Shown here: positions 31,692-32,426 of the stretch, in pieces
Layout: every line of letters begins with the position of its first letter
Numbering within the stretch: position 1 is the stretch's first letter
NCBI GenBank assembly: GCA_944391585.1
Contig: CALXUD010000010.1
Coordinates: 1 to 32,458, forward strand
Direction of reading: 5' to 3'
Source of the DNA: an uncultured Alphaproteobacteria bacterium
Lineage (GTDB): Bacteria; Pseudomonadota; Alphaproteobacteria; CAAHEQ01; UBA3637
Length of the DNA stretch: 32,458 nt
The notes under the pieces: generated by a model
Databases searched by the model: none
Seen by the model: the letters and a program-made list of their open reading frames with translations, nothing else
What the model was told of the DNA's origin: nothing
Program-made: the position numbers and the translations under genes

Positions 31692-32391
31692 TTATTGATC
31701 ACAAATATCCGATCCATATAAGCCGGTGCAATCAAGCAGCTCTTCCGCCGGCACATAATTGAACTTAACACTGACTTGAACCGCGTTTTCTCCGTTTTGT
31801 TCGGCTTGTTCATCACAATTCGCCATGGCTTCCCGATATTCTTCGGTTTTAAAGGAGCCGTTGAATGTGGAACCACCGCCTGCCATTCCATTGAATTCTT
31901 CGGAAGGTAAATCATCATGATAAGCATGATAAACCCGCTCAATCACGCCCTTACAAACGGCACTTGTTGTTTCAAAAATGTTCAAGGTAACTTTTGGATA
32001 TCCGCCGCCGTTGTAAATGTGAAATTTTATCCCGTTGTAATCTTTAACTTTATAAGTTGTTTGTGACGTTGATTGGAATGAACCACAAGCATCTTTTCCT
32101 AAATATAAATCACAAAACCATTGGGTTGAATAACAAAAACAGGTTTGATGCGCATTAGACCCATCATAACCGGTTAAATAATCCGAATGAGAAGCCTCCT
32201 TAACCGATAATGCAAATAAATCGGTGAGGCGCAGCGCTTGGTTGATATGATATTGATCCATCGCATAGCGATACCCCCGCTATCCCCCCAACACTTAACA
32301 CACCAATAATCGCCAATACCCCCAACATCTCAACCATACTCCGGCCGGATTGGAGCTCTTTAAACTTTTTCGTTAATTGTTGAATTCTCAT
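31692..32391 (-). pseudogene. Type IV pilin-like protein, broken by a +1 frameshift
   Basis: Two overlapping frames make one protein of about 232 residues. The first (from ATG 32391, with AAGGAG upstream) begins RIQQLTKKFKELQSGRSMVEMLGVLAIIGVLSVGGIAG: a basic leader, prepilin-peptidase site before a methylatable residue (G/RSMVE, with Glu at +5 from Arg), and a hydrophobic helix. At a run of five G (plus-strand C at 32274-32278) the frame must shift by one to continue as YRYAMDQYHINQALRLTDLF and onward to 31692. Read with four G, the protein is continuous. The second part has about eight cysteines, suggesting disulfides. It may be a pseudogene, a phase-off allele or a base-call error. Similar pilins are common in this kind of bacterium, with an unknown role. 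Confidence 0.82.
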
Positions 32392-32426
32392 CTTTAACTC
32401 CTTTTATGCATAAACCCGTTAAATAC

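Follow-up and report, generated by a model that had tools for sequence, protein, structure and literature searches.

A pilin-like gene near the end of a contig is split by a single base at a run of five Gs, and the question it raises is whether such a split is a switch, a mutation or a mistake of assembly. The initial annotation had offered slipped-strand phase variation, a very recent mutation, and a sequencing or assembly error; the last two of these still stand, and the switching is unsupported. The window, i.e., the whole stretch of DNA that was analysed, is the entire contig C10 of 32,458 bases, from a MAG of 1.08 Mb in 74 contigs with a completeness of 84.5%. The reading we favour, and think probable, is that the gene, one of many redundant pilin-like paralogues, lost its frame recently through an ordinary mutation, a +1 within a short run of Gs.

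The split gene and its product

The leader and the pilin-like domain of the gene are offset from each other by one base. The leader ATG, at 32391 on the minus strand, is 67 bases from the end of C10, and the lesion is about 180 bases from the same end. The features, in the direction of transcription, are as follows.

32398 to 32405, minus strand: AAAAGGAG, Shine-Dalgarno-like, 6 bases 5' of the leader ATG, spotted by eye
32200 to 32391, minus strand: leader ORF of 63 aa, a prepilin-type leader plus hydrophobic helix (39 aa) and then a 24-aa out-of-frame tail, from the ORF list, PF07963 and the leader search
32284 to 32289, minus strand: six-G run within the leader, encoding Gly-Gly, from the sequence
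32280 to 32282, minus strand: TAG in the domain frame, between both G runs, from the sequence
32274 to 32278, minus strand: five-G run, site of the one-base offset between leader and domain, from the sequence
31692 to 32279, minus strand: open frame of the pilin-like domain (RGYRYAMDQ..., through the ATG at 32261 to the stop), from ORFs, comparisons, profile and model

The leader ORF (32391-32200) encodes MRIQQLTKKFKELQSGRSMVEMLGVLAIIGVLSVGGIAG, then VSLCDG..., and stops after 24 further codons. The domain ORF (32261-31692, minus strand) is 189 aa long, and its frame is open back to 32279, with GYRYAM up to the ATG; from 32279 to 31692 it reads RGYRYAMDQYHIN..., a domain of about 190 residues. 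On the plus strand the runs are C5 at 32274-32278 and C6 at 32284-32289 with 5 bases between them, and the frame offset and the neighbouring six-G run are exactly where the initial annotation had placed them. Because the TAG at 32282-32280 closes the domain frame there, a change into the domain frame must come after it. The window has 23 G/C runs of at least 5, and three of them fall inside the split leader. The +1 at the five-G run would put the leader out of frame with the pilin domain, and translation of the gene as written would give a 63-residue leader-helix fragment. Since that product would have no pilin domain, the split copy should be silent, and the remaining family copies would keep the function going.

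Prepilins have Gly before the cleavage point and Glu at +5, and Arg at +1 is unusual in type IV prepilins. The split leader has Gly at -1 and Glu at +5 (G/RSMVE, with the slash at the cleavage point) and a hydrophobic helix, and the class III leader motif GRSMVEMLGVLAIIGVLS can be read from its sequence. The MAG holds 25 leaders including the split one; the same kind of leader is thus found in 24 paralogues, of which L030 and L031 are weak (42-44% identity). With PF07963 (N_methyl) the split leader scored 15.6 bits against a cut-off of 21.2, and paralogue L009 is also below the cut-offs, with 12.6 bits for PF07963 and 10.7 of 16.3 for TIGR02532. Five PF07963 matches were found in the MAG at E<=0.001, three of them, all paralogues, over the cut-off and none of them the window gene. 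As its score stays under the PF07963 cut-off, the split gene is classed as prepilin-like and not as a curated member. The MAG has one prepilin peptidase match (PF01478 at C38) and three T2SSE-family ATPases (PF00437 at C5, C9 and C1), with a GspF-like protein (PF00482) adjoining the C5 ATPase. In sum, the gene resembles the type IV prepilins and pseudopilins of PF07963 and TIGR02532 in its Gly/Glu leader, its helix and, in the model, the helix-plus-strands domain that follows, and in having a peptidase, an ATPase and a GspF-like protein in the same genome, but differs from them in the Arg at +1 and the low PF07963 score. By family, its product would be a type IV pilin-like protein. The model of the domain (pLDDT 58) has a long helix with later strands and helices. 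A Foldseek search with this model ranked TcpA first (E 0.04, probability 0.47, TM about 0.3) and CofA at rank 43, with viral polymerases and kinases between and after. The presence of these two type IVb pilins among the weak matches is a hint, no more, that the domain may be type IVb-like; with unrelated proteins so close behind the best match, it does not amount to membership.

At the site matching the split, the leader frame of the MAG's other copies reads exactly GYRYAM in 12 of the 24 and GYxxA in 20 of the 24. The leader ORF and the domain ORF are therefore not a chance pair, given that GYRYAM also precedes the domain ATG. Downstream of the split, 195 codons run without a stop. The domain is distantly related to those of paralogues L009, L029 and L026 (20-26% identity), with which it has four Cys in common (63, 107, 153 and 182), and in a leave-one-out profile comparison it scored 38.0 bits vs 49.3, 40.4 and 21.6 for these three. 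Its GC3 of 0.359 is within the 0.21-0.44 of 33 other window ORFs and above the 0.15-0.28 of eight paralogues checked. Judged from its sequence, the domain appears free of decay. The earlier view of an intact leader and helix separated from an otherwise intact domain is borne out, as both halves look healthy, and the remark that nothing else in the gene is decayed holds as far as tested (open codons, Cys, profile score and the AAAAGGAG box). The many other lesions that would point to simple decay were looked for in the split gene itself and were not seen.

Accounts of the frame offset

The main rival to a real mutation is an assembly or consensus error, i.e., that the organism carries an unbroken gene and the one-base offset arose in assembly, near the end of C10; we take this possibility seriously while thinking it rather unlikely. 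The short distance from the leader ATG to the contig end is in its favour, and this leader is not alone in it. Taking 1 kb from every contig end, one would expect about 3.6 of the MAG's 26 leaders in these terminal stretches; the number found is 13 (binomial P about 1e-5), on C9, C10, C12, C17, C19, C20, C37, C47, C49, C51, C61, C65 and C67, which makes pilin loci the places where this assembly fails. Among 14 leader stretches chosen for their short frames, 13 hit a contig end (12 in relatives and one in the MAG), and pilin loci seem to break the assemblies of the MAG and its relatives alike. Against an error, 33 other selected window ORFs (29,139 bases) are open despite 19 G/C runs of 5-6; the same ORFs hold 104 A/T runs of 6-9, again with no break. 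In an NCBIfam scan of ten of the 33, FtsH, TolB, RuvB, RuvA, DnaB, SecD, SecF, EttA and a MATE protein covered at least 90% of the profile, and TilS was covered whole only in an N-terminal model. The last 197 bases of the contig match the MAG strongly (E<1e-8) in five places, at 72-79% identity, and the remaining eleven matches are short and weak. With the strong end matches at just this identity and the MAG's own leaders at most 86% alike in DNA (mean 71%), there was no sign of an exact repeat that could account for a misjoin. The 56 other genomes include none of the same genus and no orthologue of the domain, and none was found among 22 candidate stretches of other contig records, a set from which the MAG's own or a very near genome was possibly left out. 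A profile of four of the MAG's domains found six places in the MAG and a single one in G029, where six stops interrupt the match, and so gave no usable orthologue.

Slipped-strand phase variation, in which the five-G run, alone or together with the six-G run, would toggle the pilin on and off, is very improbable. Two healthy halves do flank a homopolymer in the gene of a likely surface protein, and in this the gene resembles phase-variable Neisseria genes such as siaD and pilC, where a homopolymer frameshift affects a surface structure. Three G runs of 5-6 fall in the one leader, and the split leader has a mild excess of GGG, which is used at 4 of 5 Gly codons vs 28 of 106 in the paralogues (P about 0.02, uncorrected for 25 leaders). 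A Neisseria phasome study sets the cut-off for poly-G/C at 9 or more, and quotes a switching rate of less than 1e-5 for the G7 tract of siaD (PMC5953494); the run of 5 falls short of both, and, again in contrast to the Neisseria genes, the tract is not kept in homologues. The check for similar tracts in the paralogous pilins, which had been proposed, showed G runs of 5-6 over the stretch compared in 3 of 24 (L009, L019 and L029), but all three genes are unbroken and none has its run at the place of the five-G run, and G runs in the remaining 21 reach at most 2-4 bases. A set of 62 leaders from other records uses GGG 1, 2 and 6 times at the three Gly codons; the maximum run length there is 5, found in one leader. 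None of the 23 paralogues that reach the site is split. Among 43 family genomes, the exact +1 pattern is found only in the window, vs 71 unshifted matches; the pattern stands for one leader wording, that of 71 of about 1,221 leaders in 13 of the 43 genomes, and misses shifts in other leaders. A backwards control of the unshifted pattern gave nine matches, all in G060, G019 and G061. The +1 pattern itself had four matches, of which three, in G018, were rejected as leaders with a different wording, whose frame reads LLAYSIAM unbroken. Further, a slip at the six-G run into the domain frame meets the TAG at 32282-32280, and the six-G run cannot help the switching because this TAG, between the runs, closes the domain frame. 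The tract is thus short, is not kept in the paralogues and relatives examined, and has a neighbour that is barred from a part in switching. Hardly any credence can be given to the five-G run as a low-rate, gene-specific contingency site, at which slippage directly behind the helix would turn single pilins of the large leader family off and on again in this lineage. Least probable is that a full-length pilin arises at the G run through a programmed +1 frameshift of the ribosome or slippage in transcription. The leader frame is open past the run to 32200, and a frame change anywhere from about 32279 to 32203 would give a long product, but 23 of the 24 paralogues extend to the site and none of them shows the arrangement, nor does any other leader matching the +1 pattern. 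A programmed site would be expected to be conserved, and its absence in the paralogues compared counts against it; nor did a recoding signal stand out.

We infer a real and recent mutation that plays no part in switching. The switching aspect matters little in itself, and the caution that it carries is that a gene split at a few consecutive Gs in a MAG should not, on that ground alone, be taken for phase-variable.

Broken copies elsewhere

How often leaders of this kind are broken was read from five genomes of 20-30 contigs each, whose leaders, 142 in all, were listed completely with a query that stops before the break point. Eleven of the 142 have frames of <100 aa, i.e., two real breaks and nine at contig ends, in a count to which breaks further downstream (frame at least 100 aa) are invisible. 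Six of the nine read to the edge (L160, L161, L164, L166, L167 and L048), and three (on G021:C15, G021:C6 and G025:C2) were assigned by coordinates alone, 36-96 bases from the edge. The two real breaks, at C13:12898 (L162) and C1:129657 (L163), are both in G025 and neither is at a G run. Directly behind GGVAGY or GGV the leader gives way to other sequence; in one of the two a domain fragment follows out of frame, and the second continues into other sequence. The L162 fragment after the join had no match among 20 fetched G025 stretches. The surroundings of L163 carry DPRLRKDD-type peptides, a kind known as dispersed palindromic repeats. In another family, the leader at G092:C132:6227 (L158) has its break directly behind VGGIA, almost at the residue where the window gene breaks, with no G run and with its domain open in another frame; this pilin domain is 30-42% identical over at least 150 residues to pilins in many fetched loci. 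In G207:C178 a leader is followed by an early stop. In the MAG itself, 1 of 25 leaders is broken.

Among the best 80 of 410 leader-bearing loci, 79 leaders fit the pattern; 8 of these run off the stretch and 71 have a stop, the shortest frame being 123 aa. This set is biased against breaks, as the loci were ranked by similarity extending past the leader; it also overlaps the other sets and has G025 among its genomes. The 14 chosen stretches with short open frames (54-126 aa) were rejected as frameshifts, since 13 reach a contig end, as noted above, and the last, L058, is unbroken. Recombination at the join of leader and domain, suggested by the two G025 leaders that precede other sequence, was not applied to the window because the sequence after the break there is still leader (GYRYAM) and because the MAG's leaders do not exceed 86% likeness in DNA. 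That the breaks in the window, L158, L162 and L163 all come just after the helix is partly an effect of the search, which sought short frames behind leaders. The breaks are rare and the lesions varied, as a redundant family would give, so the single-base lesion of the window needs no special mechanism. In work on this leader family, contig breaks should be separated from broken copies before pseudogenes are counted or variation is claimed.

The leader family in the MAG and its relatives

Twenty of the other 24 leaders in the MAG are complete; their open frames measure 154-244 residues. Contig ends cut L016, L024 and L031, of which L031 alone is cut before the split site, and the frame of L020 stays open for 415 residues, up to a contig end. 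A 26th leader is truncated where contig C20 begins. In L023, a flagged TAA precedes the start. The end of C47 (6636-6876; L024, L156) and the start of C15 (1-439; L155) share the in-frame peptide NWENSIFNVPDSELCDNYPSSQKGE, and are probably one pilin gene cut by a contig break.

In relatives, 1,221 leaders were found in 43 family genomes (G000-G032 and G057-G066), with all 43 positive and 6-103 leaders per genome. Across these genomes and loci L071-L150, a near-invariant leader (GRSMVEMLGVLAIIGVLSVGGIAGY..AM) heads very different downstream domains, in stop-to-stop frames of up to 3,860 aa. This combination of leader and domains is the more interesting point and merits a separate look. In a sample of the class, 13 of 190 genomes have the leader (E<=1e-6); 11 of these are from other families, and 9 of the 11 have 1-3 copies. 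The best 80 of the 410 leader-bearing loci come from MAGs titled Alphaproteobacteria, proteobacterium, Rhodospirillales, Azospirillum and, once, Gastranaerophilales, and several of these 80 titles give ruminant or deer gut as the source. In a limited literature search on type IV pilins and pseudopilins, Alphaproteobacteria, MAGs, gut and rumen, and the leader string, no description of a large leader family was found.

Two further loci of the relatives may be recorded. Four leader pilins with frames of 124-150 aa follow one another in G013 (C31:26268-27723; L058) as a tandem array. In G000 (C1:58500-63151; L151), a frame of 1,215 aa that contains beta-flower units and a TrbI domain is followed by a T2SSE-family ATPase, which we take to be VirB11-like, and the two stand two genes ahead of a leader pilin; these surroundings look like part of a type IV secretion locus.
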